From an uncultured Bacteroidales bacterium (lineage in GTDB: Bacteria > Bacteroidota > Bacteroidia > Bacteroidales > Muribaculaceae): a DNA stretch of 49,242 nucleotides. The stretch lies in contig CACYVC010000035.1 of the NCBI GenBank assembly GCA_902777835.1, forward strand, positions 1 through 49,242, read 5' to 3'. Made by a program: the position numbers and the translations under genes. Below, one piece after another: positions 10,873-48,023 of this stretch; position 1 is the first letter of the stretch, and every line of letters starts with the position of its first letter. Under the pieces are notes generated by a model. That model ran no database searches and was not told where the DNA came from. It was given only the letters and a program-made list of their open reading frames with translations.

Positions 10873-11952
10873 TTACATAAACTTGTCACCGAAGTGTGTT
10901 TTAGCCTCGTTGACGTAGGTTTTAATTTTCTGCTCATCGTTGATGGGCACTATGAGTAGTGCATCGGGTGTGTCGGCTATGACATATCCGTTAATGCCTG
11001 ACACTACTACGAGTTTATCGCCCTGAGCAGCGATTACGTTGTTGTGACTGTCGAAGGCGAGGACCTTGCTGTTGGGGGTAACGTTGGCATCTCTGTTCTT
11101 AGGCGCGTTGTCGTAGATAGAACCCCAAGTGCCAAGATCGCTCCATCCGAAGTCCACCTTCTCGACAAATACGTTGCTTGATTTCTCCATTAGTGCATAG
11201 TCAATAGAGACATTAGGGCAAGTGCCATAGAGATTGTTGATGATTTCTTGCTCGTTGCTGGTGTTGAAGATGTCGCCAGCATGGTCAAAAACCTCGGCAA
11301 TCTCGGGTGCGTGAGTGCGCATCGCGTTGATGATGGTATCTACGCCCCAAAAGAACATTCCTGAATTCCAGAAAAACTCTCCACTCTCGAGGAACACATT
11401 GGCAAGTTCTTTGTTTGGCTTCTCGGTGAATGTCTTCACCTTAGAGAATGCCTCGTCGATATGTTCGCCTTCCTGTATGTAGCCGTAACCCGTTTCAGGA
11501 CGGTTGGGCTTAATGCCAAAGGTGACTATAGCATCGTTGTTCTCGATGAAGTCAAAAGCCTTAATTACGCAGTCGTTGAAATCGTTCTGCCTCAGAATCA
11601 AGTGGTCGCTAGGTGCCACCATAATCTTAGCGTTTGGGTTTATGGCCTTGATGTGCCAGGCTGCCCAAGCGTTGCATGGCGCAGTGTTGCGCATCACTGG
11701 TTCGAGCAAAATCTGATTAGGCTTGATATCGGGGAGTTGCTCCTGAATGATGTCGGCATATCGCTCGTTTGTCAGGAAGATGATATTCTCTACGGGTATG
11801 ATGCCTTCGAGCCTGTCGTAGGTGAGCTGCAGCAGGCTACGTCCAGTGCCCAGAAAATCAATAAACTGTTTGGGCATAGCAGTGCGGCTATATGGCCAGA
11901 ATCGGCTTCCCACACCGCCACACATAATTACGCAAAATCGGTCTTGTTTCAT
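10873..11952 (-). CDS. manC: Mannose-1-phosphate guanylyltransferase
   Basis: This enzyme makes GDP-mannose from mannose 1-phosphate and GTP, the precursor for mannose- and fucose-containing surface glycans. The nucleotidyltransferase signature GGVGSRFWPYSR followed by PKQF lies at residues 12-29. Further blocks are VAPSDHLI, PNRPETGYGYI, FTEKPNKE, FFWNSGMFFW and VDFGWSDLGTW. At 359 residues it is the short form without the isomerase/cupin domain found in bifunctional enzymes. It begins 23 bases below the CNNM gene and probably shares its transcript. Confidence 0.92.
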   Translation of the reverse strand: MKQDRFCVIMCGGVGSRFWPYSRTAMPKQFIDFLGTGRSLLQLTYDRLEGIIPVENIIFLTNERYADIIQEQLPDIKPNQILLEPVMRNTAPCNAWAAWHIKAINPNAKIMVAPSDHLILRQNDFNDCVIKAFDFIENNDAIVTFGIKPNRPETGYGYIQEGEHIDEAFSKVKTFTEKPNKELANVFLESGEFFWNSGMFFWGVDTIINAMRTHAPEIAEVFDHAGDIFNTSNEQEIINNLYGTCPNVSIDYALMEKSSNVFVEKVDFGWSDLGTWGSIYDNAPKNRDANVTPNSKVLAFDSHNNVIAAQGDKLVVVSGINGYVIADTPDALLIVPINDEQKIKTYVNEAKTHFGDKFM

Positions 11953-30927: not shown

Positions 30928-32514
30928 TTATGGTTGACGAGTCATTGAAAATGTACCATAGGTTAAATGATTCTCAGTAGAACCCCAATTCCTAGTGGCA
31001 TTTCCAGCTATACTTGTTGGGTTAATAAGATTGTCAAATGTTCCCGTAAAGCCTTTAGAATAATACATAGGCCATGAAGAACCTGAACTGTCGCTGAAAC
31101 TGATTTTTATAGAGCCATCATTCTGTACGTTCCAACTACCTGTATTCGTGGTGTGTGCCATAAACAGGTAACCACTTACGTGAGTAAATGTGGCTTTACC
31201 ATCAGCAGTCAAAACAATTGTTGATGATTCTGATTGATTATTATCAAAAAATTCCGTACAGCTCCAGGTTCCAGCCAAATCTGGAGTAGAGAATGTTATG
31301 GCTTCTTGCTCATAGATATATGTGTCACCAACCTTGACATAGGCATAGCATTGATACGTTTTCCATGGTTTTAACCCTGTCAACATCACTTGCTGTTCTC
31401 CTTCAATTGTTTGGGCAGGAAAAATTAGCTTATTGTTGCCATTCTTTACAATTACGCCACAGTCCATACATTTGTCAATTCCAATGAATTTGCAATTGGC
31501 AATAGCTGAAATCAAATTAATATCACTGACTGAGACGACTGAAGCAGTTGTGGAAACTAAGCTATTCTCATTGGTCAAAGCAATACGCAATCCAATATTT
31601 GCAGTCTTGTGAGTCATGACACGCTTACAATTATGGACAGAAACACGGCAAGATTTTGCTATGTCAATTCTACTACCTCCACGAAGCACGAGATATTCAC
31701 CTTCGTCAGGGCCAGTTGGGTTTATTTGTGATTCAGATGTGTATTCAGTCCAATAGTCTTGACACCACTCCCACACGTTTCCGCTCATATCGTAGATACC
31801 TAATTCATTGGAATCTTTTGTGCCTACCGCGTGTGTGACAGAGCCACTATTATCTTTATACCACGCCACGCTATTAATGTCGTTGCTGCCTGCATATTTG
31901 TATCCCATACTCTTGTTTCCGCCACGAGCAGCAAACTCCCATTCAGCCTCGGTAAGTAAACGGAACCTCAAACCAGTCAATTGTCTCAATTTGAAGATAA
32001 ACTGTTGGCAATCAACCCAACTTACATTTTCTACAGGGTAATTGACATCACCTTTATGATAACTAGGGTTGTTGCCCATTACAGCCTCCCAAAGCTCTTG
32101 AGTGACCTCGGTCTGACCGATATAGAAAGAGCTCAGTGTCACCTGATGAGTGGGGCTTTCATCGCTCTCAGCATCACTGCCTTGCTCAGCAGTGGCACCC
32201 ATGGTAAATGTGCCACCCTGAACCTCAACCATTTTGAACGTCACGCCGTTGACATGATATTCAATAACACTATTAGGCTGATAATTTCCTAGCAACACAT
32301 CATAAACAGCAGTGACGTCGGCAGCGGTGATGTTGCCGTCGCCGTTACAGTCGCCATGCACGAGGTTGCTGGTATCGTTGTTGAGAAGGTAATCGTAGAG
32401 TGCTGTGATGTCGGCGGCTGTGATTTCGCCGTCACCGTTCACGTCACCATGAATCGCCGCATAGCTTGCCACTGTTATCGATAACAGTAAAAAAACGGAT
32501 AATAATTTCTTCAT
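30928..32514 (-). CDS. Exported dockerin + FGE-fold + lipocalin-like protein
   Basis: The 528-residue protein has a signal peptide (about 1-20) and a dockerin pair at 22-77 (GDVNGDGEITAADI, GDCNGDGNITAADV). An FGE/SUMF1 fold follows at about 88-315 (VNGVTFKMVEVQGGTFTMG, YIGQTEVTQELWEAVMGNNP, EWEFAARGGNKSMGYKYAG, NELGIYDMSGNVWEWCQDYW). Then come a fibronectin-like linker (about 320-415) and a C-terminal lipocalin-like sandwich beginning LAGTWSCTEFF. The RGGS block before SCRVSVHNC keeps only part of the catalytic Cys pattern of true formylglycine-generating enzymes, so enzymatic activity is doubtful. The fold is intact here, unlike at 9780. Confidence 0.8.
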   Translation of the reverse strand: MKKLLSVFLLLSITVASYAAIHGDVNGDGEITAADITALYDYLLNNDTSNLVHGDCNGDGNITAADVTAVYDVLLGNYQPNSVIEYHVNGVTFKMVEVQGGTFTMGATAEQGSDAESDESPTHQVTLSSFYIGQTEVTQELWEAVMGNNPSYHKGDVNYPVENVSWVDCQQFIFKLRQLTGLRFRLLTEAEWEFAARGGNKSMGYKYAGSNDINSVAWYKDNSGSVTHAVGTKDSNELGIYDMSGNVWEWCQDYWTEYTSESQINPTGPDEGEYLVLRGGSRIDIAKSCRVSVHNCKRVMTHKTANIGLRIALTNENSLVSTTASVVSVSDINLISAIANCKFIGIDKCMDCGVIVKNGNNKLIFPAQTIEGEQQVMLTGLKPWKTYQCYAYVKVGDTYIYEQEAITFSTPDLAGTWSCTEFFDNNQSESSTIVLTADGKATFTHVSGYLFMAHTTNTGSWNVQNDGSIKISFSDSSGSSWPMYYSKGFTGTFDNLINPTSIAGNATRNWGSTENHLTYGTFSMTRQP

Positions 32515-32572
32515 ACATTGATTGTTTTTAATTGGTTAATGAAAAATTTTACAAAAGATTTTTTTCCAAAAG

Positions 32573-32580
32573 CAAAGATA
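32573..32580 (-). promoter_or_regulatory. -7 element for the dockerin/FGE/lipocalin gene
   Basis: TATCTTTG on the minus strand, about 59 bases before the ATG at 32514. ATTG on the same strand (32602-32605) sits near the -33 spacing. Confidence 0.6.
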
Positions 32581-32689
32581 AAGATTTTTTTTGAAATAGA
32601 ACAATAATGATGAAAATAATATTTATTAAAATAGGTAGTAGAAAGGAAAGCAGAAATTTACTACTTTCGCAGTGACTACCGAACTACGT

Positions 32690-32877
32690 AGAGATTCAGA
32701 TATGGACTACAATGGCAACCGAATCATTGCAATTGAGATTCAGAACATTATTAGGGTATTCTTTGATAACTCCTTGAGAAGTGTTGTTTTGCCCAATAGT
32801 CGTTCTCCTGAAAGCTGAATGGCTTTATGACTGAAATACTTGTCTGCAGTTATTGGATGTAAATCTCTATAATACAT
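32690..32877 (-). pseudogene. Relic of an AAA (AAA_14/DUF4143-type) ATPase gene
   Basis: On the minus strand, ATG 32877 opens a frame of 45 codons reading MYYRDLHPITADKYFSHKAI, then QLSGERLLGKTTLLKELSKN, and stopping at 32740. It matches the start of AAA_14/DUF4143 ATPases, where a YRDL leader precedes a GxRQVGKTTLLKEL P-loop. A second frame just past the stop gives LNCNDS, matching the conserved LNCDD after the P-loop, so the gene is frameshifted. Nothing further of the roughly 380-residue family is present. The promoter at 32892-32899 is still intact. Confidence 0.6.
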
Positions 32878-32891
32878 ATCTATTTTTGTTG

Positions 32892-32899
32892 CAAAGATA
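32892..32899 (-). promoter_or_regulatory. -7 element in front of the ATPase relic
   Basis: TATCTTTG on the minus strand, 15 bases before the ATG at 32877. It agrees with a once-functional gene with a very short leader. Confidence 0.45.
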
Positions 32900-32952
32900 T
32901 TTGTTGAATTTTCCTACTTTTCGGTATTAGGCTAATGATGTTTCATATAAAA

Positions 32953-32997
32953 ACTACACCTCAATAGTTTTGTGTCTAACTTCTGGGGTGCAGTTCA
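32953..32997. mobile_element. Probable insertion-sequence end relic (IS3/IS150-like inverted repeat)
   Basis: Read on the minus strand, 32997 downwards begins TGAACTGCACCCC, then AGAAGTTAGACA. This resembles terminal inverted repeats of the IS3 family (IS150 group). An internal imperfect palindrome (CACCCCAGAAGTT / AACTATTGAGGTG) follows. No transposase frame or second end was found, so it is at most a solo relic. The 32515-33085 gap otherwise contains the ATPase relic and no other gene. Confidence 0.35.
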
Positions 32998-33085
32998 AAG
33001 TCGCTGCTCGGAATGTTTTTTAGCAGAAAAACTCTCTCTATGGTGCAGTGAATAAGTAGCAATTTAAAAATATAATTAATTGCTG

Positions 33086-34024
33086 TTATGTTTTTTTAGA
33101 TAGGGATTTCAATATTTGAGAGGTTAATTTGTTTGAAAAAATATTAGCTCCCTTTTTATTTAGGTGCATGGTGTCATGAAATAACTCTCCTTTTACAAGT
33201 TCTAAATCATTTGAATAATCAAAGAATGGTATGTTGTATTGAGCGCATAGATTGACAATCTCTTTATAAGCAGGGCTATTTCTGTCTATATATCTTAAAT
33301 ATGGTGATATACAGATAAACAATTCAATACCTTTATTTTGTGCAATTTGAATAGTTCTCTCTAATTCTTGCCTTGAAAGAGGATTTACTTTACGGGTATC
33401 TTTTTCGGGTATTATTTTATATTCTTTTTCTTCTCCGTCTAATGCCCAAAATCCTAATGGGTATTCTGTAGTAGGATGTAAATAGGAGGTCAATAAATCA
33501 AAAAATTCTTCATTGTATTTATACATCTCAAAGTTCATTAATACTCTATGAAGAAAAGTTTCATTATCATCTAGAACTTTTTTTACATTGGAATTTACAC
33601 TGTAATATGGACGCATATATTTCAAGGCTGACATATTAGTTGAACCTGCCAATGTCCAAGGTTGTAGATCAATTATTACTATTTTAGGGACTTTTCTATC
33701 TATCAGGCTCTTCATCTCACAATAAAAATATGGATAATCTTGATAGGTGTTGCCTGTGTTATATATGGAATATTTTGTCCCAAAACGAGTGTTTATGCTG
33801 TCTCCTATTAATTGAGGAACATAGTTGGATCTTGCAGAAGAGCTGCCTAAAATTATGATATCAGCTGTGGCAGCATTAAGGCAGTAATTTAGTCCACAAT
33901 GTTCCTTCTCTAGATTCTTATGAGAGATAAACCTCATAATATATCCAAAGATACAATCAAAACAATACAGACATAAAAGAACTGTAACGAAACAAATAAG
34001 TATTTTAGTGAAACCTTTCTTCAT
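33086..34024 (-). CDS. SGNH-fold membrane-anchored protein of the FkbH-ACP-MBOAT cassette (DltD-like role)
   Basis: I choose ATG 34024 (312 residues), because it gives an N-terminal membrane anchor (KILICFVTVLLCLYCFDCIF) and starts one base after the MBOAT stop. The periplasmic part shows SGNH/GDSL blocks: ILGSSSARSNY with the nucleophile Ser at about 61-62, a GNTYQDYPYF region, and ELFHDTMHLNKKGA near the end, carrying the Asp and His of the triad. Its position after an MBOAT and an acyl carrier protein mirrors DltD in the D-alanylation pathway, so I infer that it helps transfer or hydrolyse an acyl group at the cell surface. The sequence is AT-rich compared with flanking housekeeping genes. 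Confidence 0.72.
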   Translation of the reverse strand: MKKGFTKILICFVTVLLCLYCFDCIFGYIMRFISHKNLEKEHCGLNYCLNAATADIIILGSSSARSNYVPQLIGDSINTRFGTKYSIYNTGNTYQDYPYFYCEMKSLIDRKVPKIVIIDLQPWTLAGSTNMSALKYMRPYYSVNSNVKKVLDDNETFLHRVLMNFEMYKYNEEFFDLLTSYLHPTTEYPLGFWALDGEEKEYKIIPEKDTRKVNPLSRQELERTIQIAQNKGIELFICISPYLRYIDRNSPAYKEIVNLCAQYNIPFFDYSNDLELVKGELFHDTMHLNKKGANIFSNKLTSQILKSLSKKT

Positions 34025-34025
34025 A

Positions 34026-35471
34026 TTAGAATTGGAAATATATAAACTGTCCTCCATCAAGATTACCACACAGGAAAACACAAATTAATAATATAATAAT
34101 TGATGCTATCCTTATAGATAATCTCTTTGAGTGAAGAAAATGAATATTATATTTGTTTTCGTCTTTAAACTCCTTAAATATCAAAAGTAGTATAAATGGT
34201 ATTCCAAAAACGAAAGCTGTCTTATTTACAAATGGTAGGCCATATCCATAAGTCAATCTTTGCATTATCTCAAAAGACTCAGAAAGATTGCTTGCCCTGA
34301 AAATAATTAGTCCAACTGTAACAAGGAGAAACGTTATTAATATGCGTGGATACTTATAATAAGCCTTCTTTTTGAGAGAATACTTTTTTTCAAATTTTCT
34401 TCTTTTTCTTTCGGTTGCAGCTATTATGATTAGAATTATACCATGATAAGCACCAAATAAGACATATGTCCAATTAGCCCCATGCCATGCGCCTATGACA
34501 ACAAGATTGATAAAGATTGCTATATACATTCCATATTGTCCGAGGTTTCTAAAGCGTACATTAAGTGGCATATATATATAATCTGTAATCCATGTCGTCA
34601 ATGACATATGCCATCTTCTCCAATATTCACTTGTGTTCTGAGATAAAAAGGGTCGATGGAAATTCTCTCTAACTTTAAGTCCTAGTAACTGTGAAACTCC
34701 TATGGCCATCTCAGAATAACCTGAGAAATCGGCATACATTTCAAAGGAATACAAAAGAACAGCAATTAGAATTGATGTGGCATTATGATGTGAATAGTTG
34801 TCAAGAACTGCGCTCGTGTAGCCAAAAAGTCTATCAGCAATACATACTTTTAGAAATAAGCCCCAAATGATTCTTCGGGTTCCTTCTGCCACGTTATCAT
34901 AGTCGAATTGTCTAGATTTGTTTAATTGAGGAATAAATTCGCCTGGCCTATCAATAGGGCCCGAAAGTATTGTTGGGAAAAAAGCTATGAATGTGGCAAA
35001 TTGGATAAAATCTTTAGTTGGCTGAATGTTTTCTCGATGAATTTCCAATACATAGCTAATCAGTTTAAAAGTAAAAAAGCTAATACCGATTGGCATGATA
35101 ATGCTAAAGGTGCTGAGATGTGCATTTAAACCAAAAGATTCAAAAAGATGTGCGAACTCTTGCACAAAGAAGCCTAAATACTTGAAATAGAAGAGTACAC
35201 CAACTCCTAGCACTACCCCTAAAGTGGTTAGATGTGATGCTCTCTTTGGATTATCTTTATTATTCTTTTTTATTTGTAATCCTAGCCAGTAAAAAACTAT
35301 TGTAATAATGGCTAGAAGTGGTATCATCTTCCAGTCGGCCCACCCATAAAAGAAATAACTAGCAAGTAACAACCAAAGATTTTGTGCTTTATAGGATTTT
35401 CTTAATAAGACAAAATATGGTAAACTTACAACAGCAAAAAACAGCCAAAAGATGATAGAATTGACAACCAT
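34026..35471 (-). CDS. MBOAT-family O-acyltransferase (AlgI/DltB-like)
   Basis: The 481-residue polytopic protein matches the AlgI/DltB type of membrane-bound O-acyltransferase. Key blocks: ASYFFYGWADWKM (about 37-49), MPIGISFFTFKLISYVLEIH (126-145), SGPIDRPGEFIPQL (170-183), WRRWHMSLTTWITDYIYMPL (284-303) and IGAWHGANWTYVLFGAYHG (326-344), whose His330 is the expected catalytic residue. Such enzymes carry acyl groups from a cytoplasmic thioester donor to an extracytoplasmic hydroxyl. The acyl carrier protein gene lies seven bases upstream, a natural donor. AlgI partners for alginate acetylation (AlgJ/X) are absent. Confidence 0.88.
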   Translation of the reverse strand: MVVNSIIFWLFFAVVSLPYFVLLRKSYKAQNLWLLLASYFFYGWADWKMIPLLAIITIVFYWLGLQIKKNNKDNPKRASHLTTLGVVLGVGVLFYFKYLGFFVQEFAHLFESFGLNAHLSTFSIIMPIGISFFTFKLISYVLEIHRENIQPTKDFIQFATFIAFFPTILSGPIDRPGEFIPQLNKSRQFDYDNVAEGTRRIIWGLFLKVCIADRLFGYTSAVLDNYSHHNATSILIAVLLYSFEMYADFSGYSEMAIGVSQLLGLKVRENFHRPFLSQNTSEYWRRWHMSLTTWITDYIYMPLNVRFRNLGQYGMYIAIFINLVVIGAWHGANWTYVLFGAYHGIILIIIAATERKRRKFEKKYSLKKKAYYKYPRILITFLLVTVGLIIFRASNLSESFEIMQRLTYGYGLPFVNKTAFVFGIPFILLLIFKEFKDENKYNIHFLHSKRLSIRIASIIILLICVFLCGNLDGGQFIYFQF

Positions 35472-35478
35472 TGATTAT

Positions 35479-35721
35479 TTATTTAAGTTTTTCTTCTATG
35501 GAATTCACCATCTCTCCAACATTGTTCCATTTCATTATTTCTAAAGAAGAGAACTTAAACTTAAACTTCTTCTCTATAGCTACAATAAGTTGGATATGGC
35601 TCAGTGAGTCCCATTCTTCAATATCATTGGCGCTTGTCTCGTCTGTCAGATTACATTCGTCAAGATCGAGCACGTCAATAAAGATCTCATTCAATTGATC
35701 AAAAATTTCTTGTCTTTCCAT
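35479..35721 (-). CDS. Acyl carrier protein
   Basis: The 80-residue acidic protein has the phosphopantetheine attachment motif EWDSLSHIQL, with Ser39 as the site, and the usual four-helix pattern. It is not the housekeeping AcpP, whose motif is DSLDTVEL. It lies between the FkbH-like gene (95 bases upstream) and the MBOAT gene (seven bases downstream). In FkbH systems such a dedicated carrier receives a glyceryl group from 1,3-bisphosphoglycerate, and in Dlt systems the equivalent DltC carries D-alanine. The glyceryl load here is inferred. Confidence 0.9.
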   Translation of the reverse strand: MERQEIFDQLNEIFIDVLDLDECNLTDETSANDIEEWDSLSHIQLIVAIEKKFKFKFSSLEIMKWNNVGEMVNSIEEKLK

Positions 35722-35816
35722 AATTACACTATATAAAACTCTTATTTAGTTATTCTAAAAAACTATCTTCCTTCAAATAATAGAAAAAGCATATTATCCT
35801 ATTTTCTAGAAGTAGA

Positions 35817-37559
35817 TTATTCAAACGTTTTTGTTTCAATAAAACATTCGCGGGGCTGGTAGCTTTCAACATTCAATTGGTATTGATCTGTTTCAGTACA
35901 TTCAATTTTGCTGAAACCTAGATCTGAATAGTGATTCTCTACCATTTTATTCTTAGGTGTGGGTAGATACTCTCCAATTATTCTCTTATAACCAGCTGCT
36001 TTGGCTTTCTCTACCATAATGTTCAGAGTAAAGTTTTCCATGCCACGCTTCAAAACACGGCAGCTCATAAACCAAGTGTCAATAAACAATGTATCGGCAT
36101 CCAGCTTTTTCATAATGATTACAGCTATTAAGCCATTATCACCAAACTTGTCTTCCAGAGTAAAGCTTATGTCAATTACATCGGGATTCTCAGCCAAAGC
36201 TGTGATATCGGCTTCAGTATAACGAACAGTGCGCAAATTAAACTGATTGCTACGTTGAGAGAGTTGAGCAATGCGAGGTGTGTTAAACTTGGTGAAGCCA
36301 CTAACAGTAGATACCATATTAAGTGACTTAAGAAAATCAGCCTCATTGGTAAATGTCTTAGAAAGTGACACTCGTTTAGCTTCTACTTGATATTGCTTAG
36401 TTCTGTCTTTGTCGGCAGAGCTGTAGCTGGCAGTCTCAAAAAGATTGAGGGAATAGAGATATTCTAGATAATCTCCAGGATCTTCTGGTAATTCTGGAAC
36501 AGTGATACCCTTTATGTGCTCTCTTACAATATTTCGCTCAAAAGGATTGTCATCAAGAAATACCATGGAGTCAAAGCCTATATTTAAGATGCTTTGAATT
36601 GTACGGATGTTATCGACCTTTGTTTCCCAATTGGCTTGGAACACAGCGATGTCATCAAGCTTGAGTATCATATCTGGGTGCTTCTCAAAAGGCTCTTTAG
36701 CTGTTTCTTCGTTGTTTTTTGATGCTACACAAATGATAATACCACGTTGTTTCAGCTTTTTTATCCACATTTGGAACTCAGTAAAAGCTTTGCCTATTCC
36801 TAATCCATGTCCAAGTTGAATGCCTTCAATACCATCATCGCCAATAACACCACCCCACACAGTGTTGTCAAGGTCAAGAATTAAGCACTTTTTGAATTGT
36901 CCTTTGATGGCGCAAACAATATCCATCGCTCTAGAAGCCACATAGGGCAGTGCATCAATGCTTAATATCATTTCTGTGCTAACATATACATTAGAGGCAA
37001 ACATGAAATCTCGACCCAGTTTGTTTTGGAGTCCAGATATGTCACAAATAAAAAGGTTAGAATAGTGTTGAGCAAGATTCATCAACTCATAATTGAGCTT
37101 GCGAACTTGATAACTAAGCGAAGAAGTGACTTTGTTGGCGTAACTGCCAAAGACTGTATCATCGATTTCAGGATAGTTGAAATAGATGATCTTCTTATTA
37201 GCCAAAGCAGGAATCTCACATATAGAAGTTATGAATTCTAGCCTCTCATCAGCTAGTTTTATCTGCTGCTCAATAGGTAACTGACTATGATGTTCTCCCA
37301 ACTTGTGAGTTGATTGGAACACGATAACCATGTCTGCATCAAACTCATATAGTTCGCTTGTTGGGTCCAAAAACTGGCGCTCTACTTGGTTATACTCTGC
37401 TTCGAAAAGATTGATGTTATAGCCACGCTCTGCTCCTGCTCCTTTAATGGCTGTGCCAAGAAATTGAGTGGCAGTATCGCCAATTAACGATATTTTAATT
37501 GATGGATAGGCTGATAAGTCGCTCTTTAGCAATTTCTTTAATTCTTTAAATTGAAGCAT
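35817..37559 (-). CDS. FkbH-like HAD-IIIC phosphatase/glyceryl-ACP loading enzyme
   Basis: The 580-residue protein has an N-terminal SGNH-like region (about 20-215; SLIGDTATQFL). The HAD-IIIC catalytic domain follows with CLILDLDNTVWGGVIGDDG, where Asp229 and Asp231 are the nucleophile pair, and VFLDDNPFERN near residue 345. A C-terminal GNAT-like acyltransferase domain (about 440-575; FTLEDKFGDNGLIAVIIM, MSCRVLKRGMENFTLN) completes the family layout. Characterised FkbH proteins transfer the glyceryl group of 1,3-bisphosphoglycerate to an acyl carrier protein with loss of phosphate. Close Bacteroidales homologues occur in surface-polysaccharide loci. No polyketide synthase is near, so a glycan-modifying role is more likely. 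It is the first gene of the cassette and has a leader of about 370 bases. Confidence 0.85.
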   Translation of the reverse strand: MLQFKELKKLLKSDLSAYPSIKISLIGDTATQFLGTAIKGAGAERGYNINLFEAEYNQVERQFLDPTSELYEFDADMVIVFQSTHKLGEHHSQLPIEQQIKLADERLEFITSICEIPALANKKIIYFNYPEIDDTVFGSYANKVTSSLSYQVRKLNYELMNLAQHYSNLFICDISGLQNKLGRDFMFASNVYVSTEMILSIDALPYVASRAMDIVCAIKGQFKKCLILDLDNTVWGGVIGDDGIEGIQLGHGLGIGKAFTEFQMWIKKLKQRGIIICVASKNNEETAKEPFEKHPDMILKLDDIAVFQANWETKVDNIRTIQSILNIGFDSMVFLDDNPFERNIVREHIKGITVPELPEDPGDYLEYLYSLNLFETASYSSADKDRTKQYQVEAKRVSLSKTFTNEADFLKSLNMVSTVSGFTKFNTPRIAQLSQRSNQFNLRTVRYTEADITALAENPDVIDISFTLEDKFGDNGLIAVIIMKKLDADTLFIDTWFMSCRVLKRGMENFTLNIMVEKAKAAGYKRIIGEYLPTPKNKMVENHYSDLGFSKIECTETDQYQLNVESYQPRECFIETKTFE

Positions 37560-37935
37560 TATTTATTAAAACTTTGAGTCTCGTATAACCCCCAACAAGA
37601 CTTGTTACACTTAAATCATTGTAAAAGTGTGGGTTTCTCTACATGCACTCTTCTGTCCCCCAAATGTGTCTCGCACAGCTAGTCAATCAAAACAGAACAA
37701 CATATAGCTCATAACTTTATGTGTATATACTCACACGTGCCATATGGATGCGATACAACATTAGAAGTAACTATACACATTAAATGAGCATCTACAGAGT
37801 TTCCTGATTATTGTCTGACTTTTTTGTTTGCGAAATCTTTGAAAATCATAGACCAAGAGCCATAGTAGACACTTCTTATTTACGTGTCACAACTTTCCGC
37901 TGCACTTTCGTTTTAGCTAAAGATGTAAGACGTTG
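37560..37935 (-). other. Long untranslated leader of the FkbH cassette
   Basis: Transcription from the -7 element at 37936-37943 would give a leader of about 370 bases before ATG 37559. I see no conserved riboswitch core. Only very short frames exist, for example a 13-codon frame starting MIFKDFANKK near 37855. It is AT-rich. The rest of the gap, 37944-38119, shows nothing recognisable. Confidence 0.45.
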
Positions 37936-37943
37936 CAAAGATA
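37936..37943 (-). promoter_or_regulatory. -7 element for the FkbH-ACP-MBOAT-SGNH cassette
   Basis: The minus strand reads TATCTTTG, an exact TAnnTTTG. No convincing -33 TTTG is seen at 19 bases, so an activator or upstream start remains possible. Confidence 0.5.
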
Positions 37944-38186: not shown

Positions 38187-41100
38187 TTATCTTTTCACTT
38201 TGAGAGTGGCGGCTTGGTGGCCGTCGGTGGCGCGGAGGATGTAGATGCCTTTAGCGAGATTATCTAAGCTAAGGGTGTTGTTGTCTGCTGCCACTTTTTG
38301 GCCGTTGATATTATAGACCTCAATCATTCCGGGAAAGTAGGCGATGTTGCCACTTACGGTGATTGCTGCCTTGTTGTCTATCACATTCTCAATGATGGTA
38401 GAGACTTCGACTTCTGTCACGCTATTCTCGTCGATGCGGAAGTAGTAGTCGCGGTCGGCTGTGATGTCGTAGTCGGGCAGTTGCTTGCCATTGTTCCAGT
38501 TGTTGAAAATGAGGTGATAGTTGCCACCCTCGGTGTTGAGCAGGAACACTTTATAGGTGGTTTCTTTGTTGAAGCTTACTTCGCCCACGCTTGCCTCACC
38601 AGGCCATGCGCCGAAGAGTTCGCTGTCGCCCCAAGCGTAGAGGCCAAGAGCATCCCAGCCAGTTTGGTCGTCAACATAGATGTAGTACTTTGATGCAGGA
38701 ATTGTGGGGAGTTCGCCACTGATGCTGAAGTCGTCGATGCCAATCGCCATGGCGGCATTAGCAGCGTCGCCGCTTGCTACGGTGATGTTCCATGCGAGGT
38801 AGAGGTCGCAGCCGCGTGAGATGGGCACGTCGAGCACGTCGCTCACAGCCACTGTCTCGCCAGGTACACTGGCATAGCCTGCTGTCTCGCTGTCAGGGGC
38901 AAAATATGTGCGGAACTTGTCGCCAGCGCTGGTCCAGTTGCGGCCGTCAATCGAGTAGTAGAGCTGCACTGCAAAACCTGCGCCATTAGAACCCTTACGG
39001 TATTTCTCCACGTTGTAAGAAACATTCACGTTCTCAATGTTCTTCCTGCCAGTGTTCAATAGGTGAGCATAGAGGTTGACGCAGCGGGTAGCGTCGGCAA
39101 CGCCTGTAGAGATGCCTCCGAGAGCGCGGTCGCTGGTGTCATCGGCACCAAAGTTCCAAGTGCCGTTCTTGGCATTGCTTGGCAGGTTCACGCCGCCGCT
39201 ATACATAGTCTCGGTGTCGGCCATGTCAAAGCGTCCCACAGTTCGTGGAGCGGTGAGCTGGCGGTCGATGCGCCAAGCATCGGGTAGGGTAGCGGTAGCC
39301 TCATCGCCTATGGCGTTGAAGTTCTCAGTAGCGTTGAGTGTCTCTTCGTTGAGCTCGATGGCGGGGAAAACTACAACCTCGGTCTCAGCAGCGGCAACCT
39401 TAACGGTAGCGTCGGCGCTGAAGTTGCCGGTAGTGGCGTTCACGTTGAAGGTACCGTTAGTGCCGTTGCTTGTGAACACGTTGTTCTCGTCGATGTTGCC
39501 ACCGTCACTCAGTGTCATCACTACAGGATCGGCAGGCTCAATTTCCATGCCGAACTGGTCGCGAACGGTAACTTTGTAATGCACTTGGCCAGCGGTGTGG
39601 TCAACATAGTTGGTGAAACCGTTGAGAGCGTTACTTGCGTAGGTGCGCATGCTTGCAGCCTCGCTGGCACTCAAGTCACTTGGCGCATAGGTGATAGATG
39701 CAGGGTCTTCGCCGAATATCAATCCATACTCCATAGCTGCAGCCATATAGGTGGCCTTGAGAGTTGGGTGGCGGTCATCGAGGAACCAGGTGTTAGTGCC
39801 TTCTGCACCCTCAGCATCATAAACAGCCTGATAAGCCACGCCCACGGGGCACAGTGTTACGCCTAGGTCAAGAGCCACGTCTTGGTAGTTCTTCACAAAT
39901 GTGCTGTTGAAGGCGGTGTAGTTGCTCCAGTCGCCGCTGTAGGCCCAGTTGATGGGCACGATGATGATGGCGTTAGGATTGGGGCAGTATTCGCGGACGT
40001 AGTCAACCCAGCGTTTCACGTTGGCGCGGAAGGCCTCGATGTTGGTGCGTGGGAGCGAACTCTGCTCTTGCAGGATAATGTGGCTCCAAGCCTCGCTGCG
40101 CACGAGCATCTTGGCGCCAGGATTGCCATCCTCGGCTACACCGTCGCCCTCTTCCCAATGAGTCTGGAGCGACTTGCCGAGCAGGGTGTGCTTGGTCCAG
40201 TTAGCGTTCTTGCCCATAGCAGCAGCGATGTCGTTGAACACTGCGTCTTGGTCGTTGTAGTAGATAAGGCTGTTGTTGAGCGACAGCACTTTAACCTCGG
40301 CGGGCAACTCGGGAACGAGCACCACGTCGGCAGGTTGCAGAGTCATGGTGGTGGGAGTAGAAGCACTCTTCACGAGGCTATACTCGCCAGTCGAGAGGTT
40401 GAATGTCACGTCGTAGGTGCCAGCAGCAGTCGAAACTGTGCCTGTGCTACCTTTGACGAGTGTGCCGCTGGTGTTATCGCCAGTAAGGTCGCTTTCAGCA
40501 CCCCACACGCCCACCATGCCTAGGCGCTGATAGATGCGCCAGTGGCAGTAGCCGTCATCGCTAGCGCTCATAGTCACCTGGCCAGTGAAGATGTTGTTTT
40601 CGATGAGTTGCAACTTGCCGCTGGTGTCCATATAGTTCCAGCCGTTGTTGTCGCCAATCATATACACTTCGGTGAGGCCAGTCTCATCGTCATCGCTTTG
40701 GAGCAGCAGGGTAGCGCTACCATTGGCGATGGTGAGGATGATTTTCTTGCACACGTAGGTGTTACCACCGCAAGAGATGTTGTCGTTAGTGCCAAGCACA
40801 AGCGAGTAAGGTGTGTCAATCATCACTGAAGTGCCGTTGCTGCCGTAGTTGCAAGCGCTGCTCCAGTTGGCATCAGCAACTTTGAAGGCACCGCTCAATG
40901 TCTTGTCGTAGAGCACATAGTTGCCCTCGCCCTCGTCGCTGAACTCCCAGTCGGTAACTGCGCCCCAGCTGTTGACCTCGCCGCGCAGATAAATGCCCGA
41001 TGCCACAAAAGGTGGACGACTTGGATCTACCCAGCCAGTGTAGTTCTCGGGGTCGGTAATTTCAGTAACCTCAGTAGAGGTTAGACAAAGATAGTAGTCT

Positions 41101-42053
41101 CGGTTAGCGGTGATGTTCATTGTCTGGCTGTTGCTGCCGCCGTCGGTGAATGTGAGAGTGTGTTCGGCGCCATCCATGTCGATGGCCCACACCTTATAAT
41201 TTACGCCATTTACTTGAGCGCTGCTCTCGGGCAGTGAGCCATTCATGTAGAGTGTGCTCCACTTGGTAACATCTTCTACATAGATATATGCGCTCAGATC
41301 TTGAGAGGCAAAAGTTGCGTCTATTGCCACATTATCTATAGAGAGGCCCATCGCCTTGTTGGGACTTGAGCCGCTTGCCACGCTGATGTTCCATGCGAGG
41401 TAAAGCTGTTCGCCTGCGGCGATGTTCACCTTGAGTTGCTTGCCGTTGATGGCAGTAGAGCTGATGGGCACGTTGGCAGCGCCAGCAGTGGCAGCATCGG
41501 GAGCGAAATAGGTGTAGAAGTCTTCACCAGCGCTGGTCCAATTGGTTCCGTCGGTCGAGGTGTAGAGCTGCACAGCAAAGCCAGCTGCGTTGTCGCCATC
41601 GCGGTACTTCTCGATGTCGTAGTTGATGGTGAGTTTGGTAATGGCTTCGTCGCCAGCGTTTTTCACGCATGTCATCACATTGATGCAGCGAGTGCCACCG
41701 TCAACGGTGGTTGAGAGACCGCCCACCGAGCAATCGCTGGGTGTGCTGCTCGACTGGAAATTCCAGGTGCCGTTCTTGGCATTGCTGGCAAGACTAGTGC
41801 CACCAGTGTACATTACAGTAGTGGAAGCACTTGCAAAACTGCCCACAGTGCGTGGAGCGCTGAGGTTTCTATCCACTTTCCAGCCTTGAGGCATTTGCAG
41901 TGTGGCTTCACCGGCTGTGGCATCCCACATGCCATCGAAGTCCTGAGTCACTTGTGTGGCAGAGGCATTTACCTCTACCACGTCTTGAGCCTGAGCGCTG
42001 CTCCAACCGAGCATCACCATAGCTACAAGAATTAAGAATAAGTGTTTCTTCAT
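38187..42053 (-). CDS. Large secreted DUF4886 (SGNH-like) protein with duplicated sandwich domains and type IX tail
   Basis: The 1288-residue protein has a signal peptide (ending SSAQAQ, about residue 23). Order: beta-sandwich A1 (about 25-250); a small module with YIYVEDVTKWSTLYM resembling starch-binding CBM26 units; two SusE/F-like modules (about 345-570; GIYLRGEVNSWG, VYMIGDNNGWNY); a DUF4886 SGNH-like hydrolase domain (about 590-810; LSLNNSLIYYN, SHIILQEQSSLPR, WFLDDRHPTLKATYMAAAM); an Ig-like link; sandwich A2 (about 905-1135), clearly a copy of A1 (SAPRTVGSF versus TAPRTVGRF, both with SNAKNGTWNF); and a second CBM26-like unit. A type A sorting tail ends it (IEVYNINGQKVAADNNTLSL, GIYILRA). 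It likely binds and deacylates a polysaccharide outside the cell; the substrate is unknown. Confidence 0.78.
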   Translation of the reverse strand: MKKHLFLILVAMVMLGWSSAQAQDVVEVNASATQVTQDFDGMWDATAGEATLQMPQGWKVDRNLSAPRTVGSFASASTTVMYTGGTSLASNAKNGTWNFQSSSTPSDCSVGGLSTTVDGGTRCINVMTCVKNAGDEAITKLTINYDIEKYRDGDNAAGFAVQLYTSTDGTNWTSAGEDFYTYFAPDAATAGAANVPISSTAINGKQLKVNIAAGEQLYLAWNISVASGSSPNKAMGLSIDNVAIDATFASQDLSAYIYVEDVTKWSTLYMNGSLPESSAQVNGVNYKVWAIDMDGAEHTLTFTDGGSNSQTMNITANRDYYLCLTSTEVTEITDPENYTGWVDPSRPPFVASGIYLRGEVNSWGAVTDWEFSDEGEGNYVLYDKTLSGAFKVADANWSSACNYGSNGTSVMIDTPYSLVLGTNDNISCGGNTYVCKKIILTIANGSATLLLQSDDDETGLTEVYMIGDNNGWNYMDTSGKLQLIENNIFTGQVTMSASDDGYCHWRIYQRLGMVGVWGAESDLTGDNTSGTLVKGSTGTVSTAAGTYDVTFNLSTGEYSLVKSASTPTTMTLQPADVVLVPELPAEVKVLSLNNSLIYYNDQDAVFNDIAAAMGKNANWTKHTLLGKSLQTHWEEGDGVAEDGNPGAKMLVRSEAWSHIILQEQSSLPRTNIEAFRANVKRWVDYVREYCPNPNAIIIVPINWAYSGDWSNYTAFNSTFVKNYQDVALDLGVTLCPVGVAYQAVYDAEGAEGTNTWFLDDRHPTLKATYMAAAMEYGLIFGEDPASITYAPSDLSASEAASMRTYASNALNGFTNYVDHTAGQVHYKVTVRDQFGMEIEPADPVVMTLSDGGNIDENNVFTSNGTNGTFNVNATTGNFSADATVKVAAAETEVVVFPAIELNEETLNATENFNAIGDEATATLPDAWRIDRQLTAPRTVGRFDMADTETMYSGGVNLPSNAKNGTWNFGADDTSDRALGGISTGVADATRCVNLYAHLLNTGRKNIENVNVSYNVEKYRKGSNGAGFAVQLYYSIDGRNWTSAGDKFRTYFAPDSETAGYASVPGETVAVSDVLDVPISRGCDLYLAWNITVASGDAANAAMAIGIDDFSISGELPTIPASKYYIYVDDQTGWDALGLYAWGDSELFGAWPGEASVGEVSFNKETTYKVFLLNTEGGNYHLIFNNWNNGKQLPDYDITADRDYYFRIDENSVTEVEVSTIIENVIDNKAAITVSGNIAYFPGMIEVYNINGQKVAADNNTLSLDNLAKGIYILRATDGHQAATLKVKR

Positions 42054-44618: not shown

Positions 44619-47600
44619 ATGAAAAAATTATTACTTATTCTTGTGGGTCTGCTCACGGTAGTGACTGCGTGGGCAAGCTCCGCTACCGAAGGAGCCGACA
44701 ACAGTAGAGATATCGGACACAACTACACCTTCAACAGTGAGACTGGTGAGTTGTTGCTCCTTTACGGCGAGTTCAGCAAAGACTACAAGTGGGGCAGTGA
44801 GGTTGACCCATCATCTGTCAAGAGTGTTACCGCCACTGGCAACGTGACTTTCATTGACGACTGCTCGGAGCTGTTCAAGGGCTTCAACAATTGCACGAGT
44901 ATGGATTTGTTCGGTGTTTTCACCGGTGAAGCTACCAATATGAGCATGATGTTCCAAGGTTGCACTAGGCTCACTACGCTCGAAATCTCGAACTGGAACG
45001 TCCACAATGTAACTGATATGAGCTGGATGTTCGCAAACTGTACATGCCTTCCATCGCTTGACCTATCGGACTGGCTCACCGAGAATGTCACTGACATGAA
45101 CAATATGTTCATGGGCTGCTCGATGCTCACCTCACTTGACCTTTCGGGATGGAGCAACGACAATGTCACTAACATGATGTCGATGTTCAGTCAATGCATT
45201 AACCTCTCCTCGCTCAACCTCTCGGGATTTAGAACCCCCAATGTCACCAATATGACCAATATGTTCTCAGCTTGCTCACAGCTAACCTCGCTTGACCTAT
45301 CGGGATGGGACACCTCCAATGTCATCATCATGACGAGTATGTTTATATCCTGCACTAACCTCCAATCGATCAACATCGCTGGGTGGGAAATAAGCAATAA
45401 CATTGCCTCATTGGGCGCTATGTTCGCAGGCTGTAGTCATCTCACCACCATCTACGCTTCCACAAGTTGGAATGCCGAGAATGTCCCTGCAAATAGTGCA
45501 CCTAATATGTTTAACTCTTGCACAAGTTTGGTGGGCGGCATGGGCACTACATTCAACAGCAACTATACCGACAAGACCTATGCCCGCATCGACCGCGGCA
45601 CAGAGCAACCGGGCTATTTCACTGGGGTTTTCACGCTCTCCCTACCCGATAAGGTGACGGCTTCGCCTAATCCTGTCTGCTCTATTGACGGCGCTCGCTA
45701 CTATGCCGCAGGCTCCACCGTTACCCTTACCTACGACGGCGAGGTGCCACAGGGCAAAATACTCATCTATAAAGTGAACGGCACTCAAATTGAGGGCAAC
45801 ACCTTCCAGATGCCGCTGGATGATGTCACTGTTACATATGAAATAAATGCGTTGCCGTGCAACTACACCTACGACAGTGAGACTGGTGCGTTGACGCTTA
45901 TCTCGGGCGAGTTCAGTAAGAACAAAAAGTGGGGCAGCGATGTGGTTGCCAATGCCGTCACAAGCGTCACTGCTACTAATCAGGTGGGCTTCGCTGGCGA
46001 CTGTACTGAATTGTTCAAGGGCTTCACAAATTGCACAAGCATGGATTTGGGCAGTGCCAGCACCAGCGAAGTCACCAACATGAGCGAGATGTTCCGTGAA
46101 TGCCAAAGCCTCACCTCGATTGACCTCTCGGGTTGGAATACCAGCAAAGTCACCAACATGCTTTACCTGTTTTATAAATGCACAAACCTCAAATCAATCA
46201 ACCTCACGGGCTGGGACTTGGGCCAAACCACCAATATGATTAGTACGTTCAGAGAATGTGATAGCCTCAACACCATCTACGTTTCTACAAGTTGGGATGT
46301 AGGGAATGTCAATATCTCACTCAGTATGTTTGCTTATTGCTATGAGTTGGTGGGTGGCTGTGGCACCACTTTCAGCGCCGATCACACAGATGTAGAATAC
46401 GCCCGTATCGACCGCGGAGCTGAAGAACCGGGATATCTCACGGGTGTGTTCACGCTTTCTCTGCCCAATAATGTGACGGCTTCGCCTAAACCCGTATGCA
46501 CTCTTAGCGGCGCTGATTACTACGCCACGGGAGAAACCGTTACACTTAACTACCGCGGTACGGTGCCCGAGGGTAAGATGGTCGTCTATAGCGTGAATGG
46601 CATGCCAATTGATGGCAACACCTTCCAGATGCCTTTGGATGATGTCACTGTTACTGTCACCTTTAGATATTTGCCAATTGAAGTGGCTGTGGGTGATCTC
46701 ACGTTCAATATGATTAAGGTGGACGGCAATGATGAAATCTCCACCTTCTATATCGCCGAGTGCGAGGTGACCGAAGCGCTGTGGCTGGCGGTGATGGGTG
46801 GCGACAACCCAAGCAGCAACCCGGGCAATCTTGAGGACAATCGGCCAGTGGAAAACATCTCATGGAACGACTGCCAAGAGTTCATCGCCAAACTGAAGCA
46901 GATGACAAGACTTGACTTCCGCTTGCCAACCTCGGCCGAATGGTTGTTTGCCGCAAGCGGGGGCAACGACACCCATGGCTACACCTACAGCGGCAGCAAC
47001 ACTATTGATGATGTGGCTTGGTACGCCAGCAATTGCGAACAAAAACAGACCGTGGGCACCAAGGCTCCCAATGAGCTGGGCATCTACGACATGAGTGGCA
47101 ACGTGTATGAGATTATCCAAGAAGCCACAGGAGCTTATGGCGGCGGATGGCATTCCCCTGCAAAAAATTGTAAGGTGAATTATTACTGGCCCGCAAATGA
47201 AGACTATACCGACAATGACACTGGCTTCCGCCTCGCCATCACTAACTTTATTGAGATTCCAGAAACTGTCACTGTGGGTGACATCACGTTTAATATGATT
47301 AAAGTGAATGGCAATGATGATATTTCCACATTCTACATTGGCGAGTGCGAGGTGACCGAAGCACTGTGGCAGGAAGTGATGGGCAATAATCCAAGCAGTT
47401 TACAAGGCGACCTTGCCGACAATCTGCCAGTGGAGAACGTCTCATGGAACGACTGCCAAGAGTTCGTCGCCAAACTGAAGCAGATGACAAGACTTAACTT
47501 CCGCTTGCCGACCTCGGCTGAGTGGGGGTTTGCCGCAAGCGGTGGCAACAACAACCATGGCTACGCCTACAGCGGCAGCAGCAACATCGATGATGTGGCT

Positions 47601-48023
47601 TGGTATAACGGCAATTGCAGCCAAAAGCAGACTGTAGGCACCAAGGCACCTAACGAGCTGGGCATCCATGACATGAGTGGCAATGTTTATGAGATTATAC
47701 AAGAGGCTACACGTGTATGGGGTGGAGGATGGCATTCGTCGGCAAATAATTGTATGACAACAAGTTACTGGAGCGCAAATGAAGCCTTCTCCGACAATGA
47801 CACCGGCTTACGCCTCGCTCTCACCAACTTTGATGAGATACAAACTGTTACAGGCGACGTGAATGGCGACGGCGATGTGACAGCAGCCGATGTGACCTGC
47901 ATCTACAACTACTTGCTCAACGGCGACGAGACCTTCATCGACACCTGCGACGTTGACGGCGATGGCTTCATCACCTCAGTTGACATCACAGTGATTTACA
48001 ACATAATGTTGGGAAGTAAGTAG
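44619..48023 (+). CDS. Exported BspA/DUF285-LRR, tandem FGE-fold, dockerin protein
   Basis: The 1134-residue protein has a signal peptide (ending AWAS, about 1-20). DUF285-type leucine-rich repeats of the form LTSLDLSGWNTSNVTNM follow (about 30-330), then an InlB-like beta module (about 338-413). A second repeat block (415-610) and a second InlB-like module (611-685) come next. Two FGE/SUMF1 domains in tandem follow at 687-878 and 880-1072, nearly the same sequence (EVTEALWLAVMGG versus EVTEALWQEVMGN; both with NDCQEF and APNELG). A dockerin (GDVNGDGDVTAADV, CDVDGDGFITSVDI) ends it at 1078-1134. In place of the enzyme's active Cys pair, both FGE copies have GGGWHS...NC, so they are probably binding folds. 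Likely a cell-surface adhesion or assembly protein. Confidence 0.82.
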   Translation: MKKLLLILVGLLTVVTAWASSATEGADNSRDIGHNYTFNSETGELLLLYGEFSKDYKWGSEVDPSSVKSVTATGNVTFIDDCSELFKGFNNCTSMDLFGVFTGEATNMSMMFQGCTRLTTLEISNWNVHNVTDMSWMFANCTCLPSLDLSDWLTENVTDMNNMFMGCSMLTSLDLSGWSNDNVTNMMSMFSQCINLSSLNLSGFRTPNVTNMTNMFSACSQLTSLDLSGWDTSNVIIMTSMFISCTNLQSINIAGWEISNNIASLGAMFAGCSHLTTIYASTSWNAENVPANSAPNMFNSCTSLVGGMGTTFNSNYTDKTYARIDRGTEQPGYFTGVFTLSLPDKVTASPNPVCSIDGARYYAAGSTVTLTYDGEVPQGKILIYKVNGTQIEGNTFQMPLDDVTVTYEINALPCNYTYDSETGALTLISGEFSKNKKWGSDVVANAVTSVTATNQVGFAGDCTELFKGFTNCTSMDLGSASTSEVTNMSEMFRECQSLTSIDLSGWNTSKVTNMLYLFYKCTNLKSINLTGWDLGQTTNMISTFRECDSLNTIYVSTSWDVGNVNISLSMFAYCYELVGGCGTTFSADHTDVEYARIDRGAEEPGYLTGVFTLSLPNNVTASPKPVCTLSGADYYATGETVTLNYRGTVPEGKMVVYSVNGMPIDGNTFQMPLDDVTVTVTFRYLPIEVAVGDLTFNMIKVDGNDEISTFYIAECEVTEALWLAVMGGDNPSSNPGNLEDNRPVENISWNDCQEFIAKLKQMTRLDFRLPTSAEWLFAASGGNDTHGYTYSGSNTIDDVAWYASNCEQKQTVGTKAPNELGIYDMSGNVYEIIQEATGAYGGGWHSPAKNCKVNYYWPANEDYTDNDTGFRLAITNFIEIPETVTVGDITFNMIKVNGNDDISTFYIGECEVTEALWQEVMGNNPSSLQGDLADNLPVENVSWNDCQEFVAKLKQMTRLNFRLPTSAEWGFAASGGNNNHGYAYSGSSNIDDVAWYNGNCSQKQTVGTKAPNELGIHDMSGNVYEIIQEATRVWGGGWHSSANNCMTTSYWSANEAFSDNDTGLRLALTNFDEIQTVTGDVNGDGDVTAADVTCIYNYLLNGDETFIDTCDVDGDGFITSVDITVIYNIMLGSK

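Follow-up and report, generated by a model that had tools for sequence, protein, structure and literature searches.

A probable carrier-fed acylation cassette in a rumen Bacteroidales bacterium: an FkbH-type loader beside a shuttle-tailed MBOAT acyltransferase and an anchored SGNH protein

The window analysed here is a stretch of 49,242 nucleotides (contig CACYVC010000035.1, assembly GCA_902777835.1) from an uncultured rumen bacterium of the order Bacteroidales. It contains a cassette of four adjacent genes on the minus strand, which encode an FkbH-family protein, an acyl carrier protein (ACP), an MBOAT acyltransferase and an SGNH-fold protein. This cassette is probably a carrier-fed transmembrane acylation system, in which a glyceryl-type group would pass through the full chain from the loader to the SGNH protein. 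The genes and the residues discussed below are located as follows.

35817..37559, minus strand: FkbH-family protein, likely acyl loader, 580 aa, with FkbH_N, HAD-IIIC and C-terminal GNAT-fold domains
36060-36062, minus strand: codon of the invariant Cys500 of FkbH, whose HAD-IIIC residues are D229, D231, D336 and D337
35479..35721, minus strand: stand-alone ACP, 80 aa
35605-35607, minus strand: codon of Ser39, the phosphopantetheine site of the ACP
34026..35471, minus strand: MBOAT acyltransferase, 481 aa
34482-34484, minus strand: codon of His330 of the MBOAT
34029..34046, minus strand: acyl-shuttle hexapeptide FIYFQF, residues 476-481 of the MBOAT (published motif FXYXXF, PMC12148441)
34038-34040, minus strand: codon of Tyr478 of FIYFQF, the proposed acceptor
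33086..34024, minus strand: putative membrane-anchored SGNH-fold transferase (DltD-like), 312 aa, with an N-terminal helix (residues 2-36)
33839-33841, 33173-33175 and 33164-33166, minus strand: codons of the presumed catalytic Ser62, Asp284 and His287 of the SGNH protein

A preliminary description of this DNA had reported four packed genes on one strand, and all four are found at that place and on that strand. The gap between the FkbH and ACP genes is 95 bp and that between the ACP and MBOAT genes is 7 bp, and a single base separates the MBOAT stop codon from the ATG of the SGNH gene. This ATG, at position 34024, is most likely the start codon rather than the GTG at 34081 given in the open reading frame (ORF) list, because the start of the homologue in locus L032 agrees with it. 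The ratios of nonsynonymous to synonymous substitution rates were calculated against locus L031, the nearest relative of the window in the FkbH tree, and were 0.035 for FkbH, 0.055 for the ACP, 0.076 for the MBOAT and 0.105 for the SGNH protein. The low value for each gene means that all four are maintained under purifying selection.

The FkbH protein, the only one in the genome, scores 300 bits with the NCBIfam model TIGR01686 and thus passes the curated cut-off of 146.65; the score with Pfam FkbH_N is 294 bits. The closest solved structure by sequence is that of BF1531 from Bacteroides fragilis (3SLR; E 1.3e-178, residues 3-382). The AlphaFold2 model has a mean pLDDT of 87.6; its N-terminal part matches BF1531, and its C-terminal part matches GNAT acyltransferases. 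The protein was compared with eight other FkbH proteins, including a piece of a copy fused to a polyketide synthase (PKS) and two proteins from methoxymalonyl-type operons, which lie near PKS genes and comprise 3-hydroxyacyl-CoA dehydrogenase, ACP, acyl-CoA dehydrogenase and FkbH. Twenty-seven positions are invariant in this comparison; the window protein and all eight others share D229, D231, T233, W235, S280, N282, K314, D336, D337, E341, S499, C500 and R501. Cys500, located in the sequence SCRVLKRG, is identical in all 104 aligned FkbH rows. According to passages of three papers (PMC7489565, PMC5318452, PMC3679948), whose statements go back to the original studies of OzmB and of Sun et al., FkbH proteins load glyceryl groups from 1,3-bisphosphoglycerate onto ACPs. 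The earlier assignment as an FkbH-like HAD-IIIC protein and likely loader is supported by the conservation of the residues common to methoxymalonyl-type FkbH. Judged from its sequence, the protein is the likely loader of the dedicated ACP, and the acyl group would be carried on Cys500.

The presence of this dedicated ACP was also borne out: the protein matches Pfam PP-binding (34 bits; cut-off 20.8), and Ser39 is within the DSL of its motif EWDSLSHIQL. The DltC model gives only 16.7 bits against a cut-off of 68; that is, the ACP is not of the DltC family. The MBOAT matches PF03062 with 68.8 bits (cut-off 27), and its only NCBIfam match is the DltB model TIGR04091, whose score of 222 bits is below the cut-off of 375. 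His330, in GAWHGANW, is one of the positions conserved to at least 90% in the MBOAT set. Position 244 (codon 34740-34742) belongs to the same class; it is Glu in the window protein and Gln in 60 of 66 MBOATs.

The alignment of the MBOAT to DltB extends to residue 392, after which come 89 extra residues ending in FIYFQF. Two hydrophobic segments (414-432 and 451-469) are located in this extension, shortly before the hexapeptide. When the C-termini of 66 MBOATs were compared (the window protein and 65 from loci L001-L103), the exact F-x-Y-x-x-F was found in 64 of them; the exceptions are L100 (FIYFQY) and L095 (FIYNL). In the consulted passages of PMC12148441, FXYXXF is an acyl-shuttle motif common to DltX and the C-termini of PatA-type MBOATs, in which it sits on two extra transmembrane helices absent from DltB, and the Tyr of the PatA motif was shown to be acetylated. 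The same passages of this 2025 paper state that MBOAT-SGNH pathways other than Dlt have no carrier protein. No gene lies between the MBOAT and the SGNH protein, so there is no DltX at this position; small ORFs elsewhere were not searched for. Since the MBOAT has a C-terminal shuttle motif of its own, it is not part of a DltB plus DltX machine. In terms of its encoded proteins, the cassette is a hybrid, with a carrier-protein feed as in Dlt and a fused shuttle as in PatA. The analogy to Dlt drawn in the preliminary description is therefore sound but incomplete, as the C-terminal motif of the MBOAT had been overlooked.

The SGNH protein has no Pfam match. In an alignment of 25 homologues, G60, S62, P241 and H287 are invariant and D284 is nearly so. 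DUF1574, which is listed as an SGNH family without known activity in a passage of PMC9487903, is matched by 9 of the 25 homologues, and the Pfam DltD family by only one, with an E value of 0.044. The AlphaFold2 model, including the N-terminal helix, has a mean pLDDT of 91.3. Foldseek ranks DltD of Enterococcus faecium (6pfx; E 1.1e-5) first among the structures matching this model. CgnD, a weak match of the SGNH profile in the Protein Data Bank, was set aside; it belongs to crocagin biosynthesis according to the portion of the literature consulted.

The following route can be proposed. FkbH would draw on an acyl phosphate from glycolysis, most likely that of 1,3-bisphosphoglycerate, and the other phosphate would be removed by the HAD domain. 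The C3 acyl group would be held on Cys500 and then passed to the phosphopantetheine arm of the ACP, giving glyceryl-ACP. On the cytoplasmic side, the MBOAT would receive the acyl group from the ACP and, with His330, transfer it to Tyr478 of its own FIYFQF tail at the periplasmic face. This tail would hand the acyl group to Ser62 of the membrane-anchored SGNH protein, which would in turn esterify an extracytoplasmic glycan.

The recurrence of these genes was analysed in 73 loci from a scan of species genomes, which were selected for their resemblance to the window FkbH and so form a biased sample; their neighbours were labelled with profiles built from these same loci, at thresholds that we chose ourselves. 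An ACP is present within 4 kb of FkbH in 68 loci and an MBOAT within 6 kb in 59, and an SGNH-profile protein is adjacent to the MBOAT in 43; the core of the cassette is thus recurrent. In 46 of the 73 loci the ACP is directly followed by the MBOAT (within 200 bp), and 45 of these 46 MBOATs have the shuttle motif. An FkbH-ACP pair without MBOAT is seen, for instance, in three loci. In L064 the pair is followed by an aminoglycoside-3-N-acetyltransferase-like protein; in L067 (Treponema) the proteins encoded after it include one of FrhB type and an aldo/keto reductase, and the same gene clusters occur in L073 (Fibrobacteria). These loci mean that FkbH-ACP may feed other transferases.

In an FkbH tree of 119 proteins (450-800 aa only, duplicates dropped), one clade comprises 80 rows with an SH-aLRT support of 99, of which 67 are MBOAT-linked and 13 are not. 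This clade spans Bacteroidota, Clostridia and Ignavibacteriota, with MBOAT, and single rows from Fibrobacterota and Spirochaetota without it. The MBOAT label changes 13 times on the tree, compared with a mean of 38.7 after shuffling, a difference to which near-copies contribute. It should be mentioned that this tree and the MBOAT tree were calculated by a quick method and that several rows have long branches. The preliminary description had spoken of Bacteroidales only, and this restriction does not hold: FkbH, ACP and MBOAT are also found together in Clostridia, Ignavibacteriota and Alphaproteobacteria. An FkbH match is present in 28 of 37 genomes of the window's genus, versus none of 24 other genomes of the order, and nine of the 37 (the window's own genome and eight relatives) have FkbH, ACP and MBOAT.

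Plasmids were also considered; 117 records matched and 13 were opened; two of these had no annotation, and the 11 annotated regions were compared. In pSymB of Sinorhizobium meliloti, an MBOAT ending in FLYQGF is found with an SGNH-like protein recognised by eye, an ACP and FkbH. The SGNH-like protein is annotated as a TonB-dependent receptor, and GGST and DPGH motifs are seen in it by eye. Genes for the biosynthesis and export of capsule, RkpR among them, are located at a distance of approximately 4-7 kb. Its ACP was not equated with the published SMb20651, which is cotranscribed with a fatty-acyl-CoA ligase homologue in the consulted part of PMC7232532. A Rhodobacteraceae plasmid has ACP, FkbH, MBOAT (FIYFNF), a protein scoring weakly as SGNH (11.8 bits) and a VOC protein. 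In Tistrella mobilis, FkbH, a methyltransferase, ACP, MBOAT (FIYAGF) and a hypothetical protein are encoded on mixed strands. The eight other regions have no annotated MBOAT. Niveispirillum has a WcbI-type protein, Paroceanicella a methyltransferase and a VOC protein, and Erwinia other enzymes; PKS or ketosynthase genes accompany FkbH in Methylosinus, Rhodococcus and three Streptomyces.

Several observations weigh against the proposed system. Fourteen of the 73 loci have no MBOAT nearby; in four of these the sequence breaks off less than 3 kb downstream. Of 296 evenly sampled Bacteroidota genomes, 23 have an FkbH that scores above the cut-off, the window's own included, and an MBOAT is present at only 3 of the 24 other FkbH loci covered (22 above and 2 below the curated cut-off); this means that FkbH mostly has other roles in the phylum. 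Similarly, an MBOAT occurs in only 3 of the 11 annotated plasmid regions, all three with FkbH and ACP. The MBOAT of L095 adjoins an ACP yet lacks the final Phe of the motif, and the SGNH counterpart of S. meliloti gives no profile match. Around the window cassette, ten proteins were scanned (dockerin, FGE-sulfatase, BspA-like, DUF4886 and housekeeping-type proteins, and two without matches). There is no glycosyltransferase among these ten and no glycan-synthesis gene adjoins the cassette; the one protein that hints at glycan synthesis, a nucleotidyltransferase of GDP-mannose type (10873-11952), is encoded at a distance of more than 20 kb. As to the SGNH protein, acetyl xylan esterase (1.4e-5) and thioesterase I (5e-5) match the model nearly as well as DltD does, and the global fit to DltD is loose, with TM scores of 0.41 and 0.35 and a root-mean-square deviation of 10.8 Å. 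Since generic SGNH esterases are this close and the fit is loose, the claim made here is for an anchored SGNH protein and not for DltD. Of the earlier assignment, the fold, the anchor and the conserved Ser, Asp and His stand, and in the predicted model the SGNH fold with its N-terminal anchor is secure; the DltD subtype is not. More generally, the four-part membrane machine stands on firmer ground than the nature of the group it carries. The individual chemical steps, the glyceryl group and the surface glycan that would accept it are inferred.

The acceptor might instead be peptidoglycan, a lipid or a surface protein, and not a glycan of the capsule or lipopolysaccharide type. The isolated position of the window cassette, with no glycosyltransferase among the scanned proteins, would fit such an acceptor, and PatAB acts on peptidoglycan according to a passage of PMC12148441. 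However, relatives of the cassette are located in glycan loci. A glycosyltransferase of family GT2 or GT4 is present within 9 kb in 21 of the 73 loci, and together with the capsule genes near the S. meliloti cassette this upholds the earlier association of relatives with glycan genes. An acceptor outside the capsule or lipopolysaccharide type is unlikely.

The question of cargo is related to genes that accompany the core in some lineages. Among 82 loci, 66 cassettes with FkbH, ACP and an MBOAT longer than 400 aa were classified: 27 are plain, 18 have a VOC protein, 18 have MaoC with or without SDR, and 3 have a methyltransferase, two of these with VOC. Prevotella aff. ruminicola Tc2-24 (L042) is an example of a cassette with MaoC and SDR. 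The corresponding Pfam families are Glyoxalase_4, MaoC, adh_short_C2 and Methyltransf_23. VOC and MaoC occur together in none of the 66 cassettes, as alternative routes would predict; many rows are related, and these are not 66 independent cases. The distribution of these genes suggests that some lineages modify the acyl group on the ACP before it is exported, so that the C3 group would be exchangeable. In such cassettes L-glyceryl, lactyl and O-methylglyceryl may be formed.

From these genes it could also be imagined that the window system exports one of these other C3 acids, into which the FkbH product would be converted by enzymes whose genes lie in other parts of the genome. The tailoring genes of the relatives (18 of 66 with VOC, 18 with MaoC and 3 with methyltransferase) are in favour of this, as is the VOC protein of the Rhodobacteraceae plasmid, for which methylmalonyl-CoA epimerase is the top NCBIfam model with 58 bits, short of the cut-off of 115. 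However, in the supported set of nine MBOAT rows around the window, seven are plain and two have VOC, and the innermost three (the window and its two closest relatives) are all plain. Judged from the genes within the cassettes, export of another C3 acid seems rather improbable here, and plain glyceryl is the likeliest group, because the window cassette has no tailoring gene. A wider reading is put forward tentatively and with somewhat less than even confidence: the cassettes might represent a widespread, exchangeable platform for surface acylation, in which an activated C3 group, the acyl phosphate of 1,3-bisphosphoglycerate, is taken from glycolysis by FkbH without a ligase, optionally tailored, and placed on a surface polymer by a carrier-fed MBOAT with its fused acyl-Tyr shuttle and the SGNH protein. 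On this platform, L-glyceryl might be formed by a VOC epimerase, lactyl by MaoC dehydration and SDR reduction, and O-methylglyceryl by the methyltransferase; these assignments are equally tentative. The window cassette could then be the minimal, unmodified form, which we suggest with the same reserve.

The genome encodes six MBOATs, and the five others end in FIYFQF or FIYNQF. No ACP-profile match is found in the 8.7-10 kb covered around each of these five, and two of them have an SGNH-profile neighbour. This means that adjacency to an ACP is special to the FkbH-linked MBOAT. The five MBOATs, which carry the motif without an ACP, can also be read in favour of an ordinary acetyl-CoA-dependent O-acetyltransferase, with FkbH and ACP placed next to the MBOAT-SGNH pair by chance and serving an unrelated pathway. 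The MBOAT shares its C-terminal motif with the PatA type, for which acetyl-CoA is the donor (passages of PMC12148441), and FkbH-ACP pairs without MBOAT exist in related loci. Nevertheless, chance adjacency is very unlikely, considering that the MBOAT directly follows the ACP in 46 of the 73 loci, that FkbH, ACP and MBOAT are together from Bacteroidota to Clostridia and Alphaproteobacteria, and that nothing else in the window cassette can be seen to use the ACP.

The assembly of the window genome is 90% complete, and absences from it are therefore provisional. No match to DltA (TIGR01734) above the cut-off was found; the best, 281 bits against 559.85, lies in an ORF of 2435 aa. The reported absence of DltA is thus supported, and a canonical dlt operon was dropped from consideration. 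The 2435-aa ORF (L143, G000:C2:46000-62000) is on another contig, resembles a non-ribosomal peptide synthetase (NRPS) and has two adenylation-type matches. The genome has a single match to the ketoacyl synthase family PF00109, in an ORF of 425 aa, in line with the earlier statement that there is no sign of a PKS. A ketosynthase motif was found in none of the 73 loci; this test is weak, as the pattern was of our own making and detected only two of five control stretches annotated as PKS or ketosynthase, some of them partial. On these grounds a PKS context was dropped. It is scarcely probable that the product or target of the cassette is a secreted small molecule of peptide or polyketide type and not a polymer. 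Natural product pathways are where characterised FkbH proteins act; in the suomilide clusters of cyanobacteria glycerate is loaded by an FkbH domain, and an MBOAT is presumed to acylate a sugar (passages of PMC10143770 and PMC13122637). The NRPS-like ORF exists as well, but the lone ketoacyl synthase, the missing ketosynthase motif, weak as that test is, the membrane anchor of the SGNH partner and the capsule genes of S. meliloti all oppose it.

Some further features of the genus and the window should be described. The surroundings of 29 of the 31 FkbH matches outside the window's own were covered in the genus, the two omitted being a fragment in G013 and a weak match in G006. A second type of FkbH locus was seen in L113-L123 and L168-L176. 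It typically comprises an ACP, KAS III, VOC, GT2, FkbH of approximately 530 aa and a 74-aa ACP. KAS III is present in 19 of 20 such loci, and an AT3 acyltransferase in 14 of these 19; L114, the one locus of this type scanned, has DegT and PglD-like genes. From its gene content this second locus looks like a pathway for an acylated amino sugar. The KAS III-linked FkbH proteins form a separate clade in the tree.

A leader of approximately 370 nt precedes FkbH on the minus strand, within 37560-37943, and has at its head the following element.

37936..37943, minus strand: weak promoter-like TAnnTTTG element (TATCTTTG), conserved in L031 and L032

We take TAnnTTTG to be the promoter consensus of Bacteroidota. 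The block of the leader directly after this element is conserved in L031 and L032, and the window contains a further stretch that neither of them has. A known riboswitch was considered for the leader and dropped, as a search of the window with Rfam at the gathering threshold gave no match. The gene directly upstream of the cassette, at 38187-42053 on the minus strand, encodes a protein of 1288 aa that has a DUF4886 (SGNH-type) domain and matches, below threshold, a starch-binding module and a Por secretion tail; it is also located upstream in L031 and L032. Just 3' of the cassette, a stretch of 21 bases (32973-32993, minus strand) resembles the end of an insertion sequence; there is no second copy of it in the window and no inverted repeat in 32480-33100. 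The genes at 30928-32514 and 44619-48023 encode FGE-sulfatase and dockerin type I domains, the second with BspA-type repeats in addition.

If the proposed system is correct, it would join two chemistries that the consulted papers treat separately, FkbH loading, described for natural products, and MBOAT-SGNH acylation, described for acyl-CoA donors or D-alanine. It would mean that an acyl-Tyr shuttle can be fed by a carrier without DltX, it would supply genes that could account for esters of glycerate type on the surface of bacteria, and the tailoring genes would predict the acyl group. The relatives in S. meliloti and Chryseobacterium allow direct testing.

Glycerate as a substituent of a final product is likewise found in the esterification of vioprolide and in the flagellin sugars of Campylobacter. 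In PMC7099621, as far as its consulted passages extend, cj1302 is described as containing an fkbH domain, and flagella of strain 11168 have dimethylglyceric acid on pseudaminic acid; this acid is credited to cj1295 and not to cj1302, and no MBOAT-SGNH step is stated in those passages. FkbH and MBOAT appear together in reports on cyanobacterial peptides, where, in the parts of PMC10143770 and PMC13122637 consulted, FkbH loads glycerate within an NRPS and the MBOAT is presumed to act on a sugar or another group. Gellan, which has a glyceryl ester, was considered as a precedent and dropped, as the literature search gave nothing on it, and the candidate paper for an FkbH protein that loads lactate did not show this in the part consulted. 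No FkbH-fed MBOAT-SGNH system was recognised from titles and abstracts of the open-access literature, which is not proof of absence.

One of the closest known counterparts of the cassette is the Dlt system (DltA, DltB, DltC, DltD and DltX), which attaches D-alanine to teichoic acid and likewise has a dedicated carrier, an MBOAT and an anchored SGNH protein. Of the models, DltB fits the MBOAT best (222 bits), and DltD is the top structural match of the SGNH protein. However, FkbH is present instead of DltA, the shuttle peptide is fused to the MBOAT with no DltX between the genes, and the MBOAT and ACP are below the cut-offs of DltB and DltC (222 of 375 and 16.7 of 68). The pairs of MBOAT and SGNH proteins in PatA/PatB and in the alginate, cellulose and secondary-wall systems share with the cassette the MBOAT His, the anchored SGNH partner and the C-terminal hexapeptide, with its Tyr, after two hydrophobic segments. 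These pairs use acyl-CoA without a carrier, as passages of PMC12148441 state, whereas the cassette encodes an ACP and a loader. The glyceryl-ACP loaders of polyketide pathways (OzmB, FkbH and the tetronate type) have the same TIGR01686 match, HAD residues and SCR cysteine; in contrast to them, the cassette FkbH has no PKS beside it, and its product apparently goes to a membrane acyltransferase. Compared with these systems, the cassette would be new as an MBOAT-SGNH acylation with a new loader and a hybrid arrangement of donor and shuttle.

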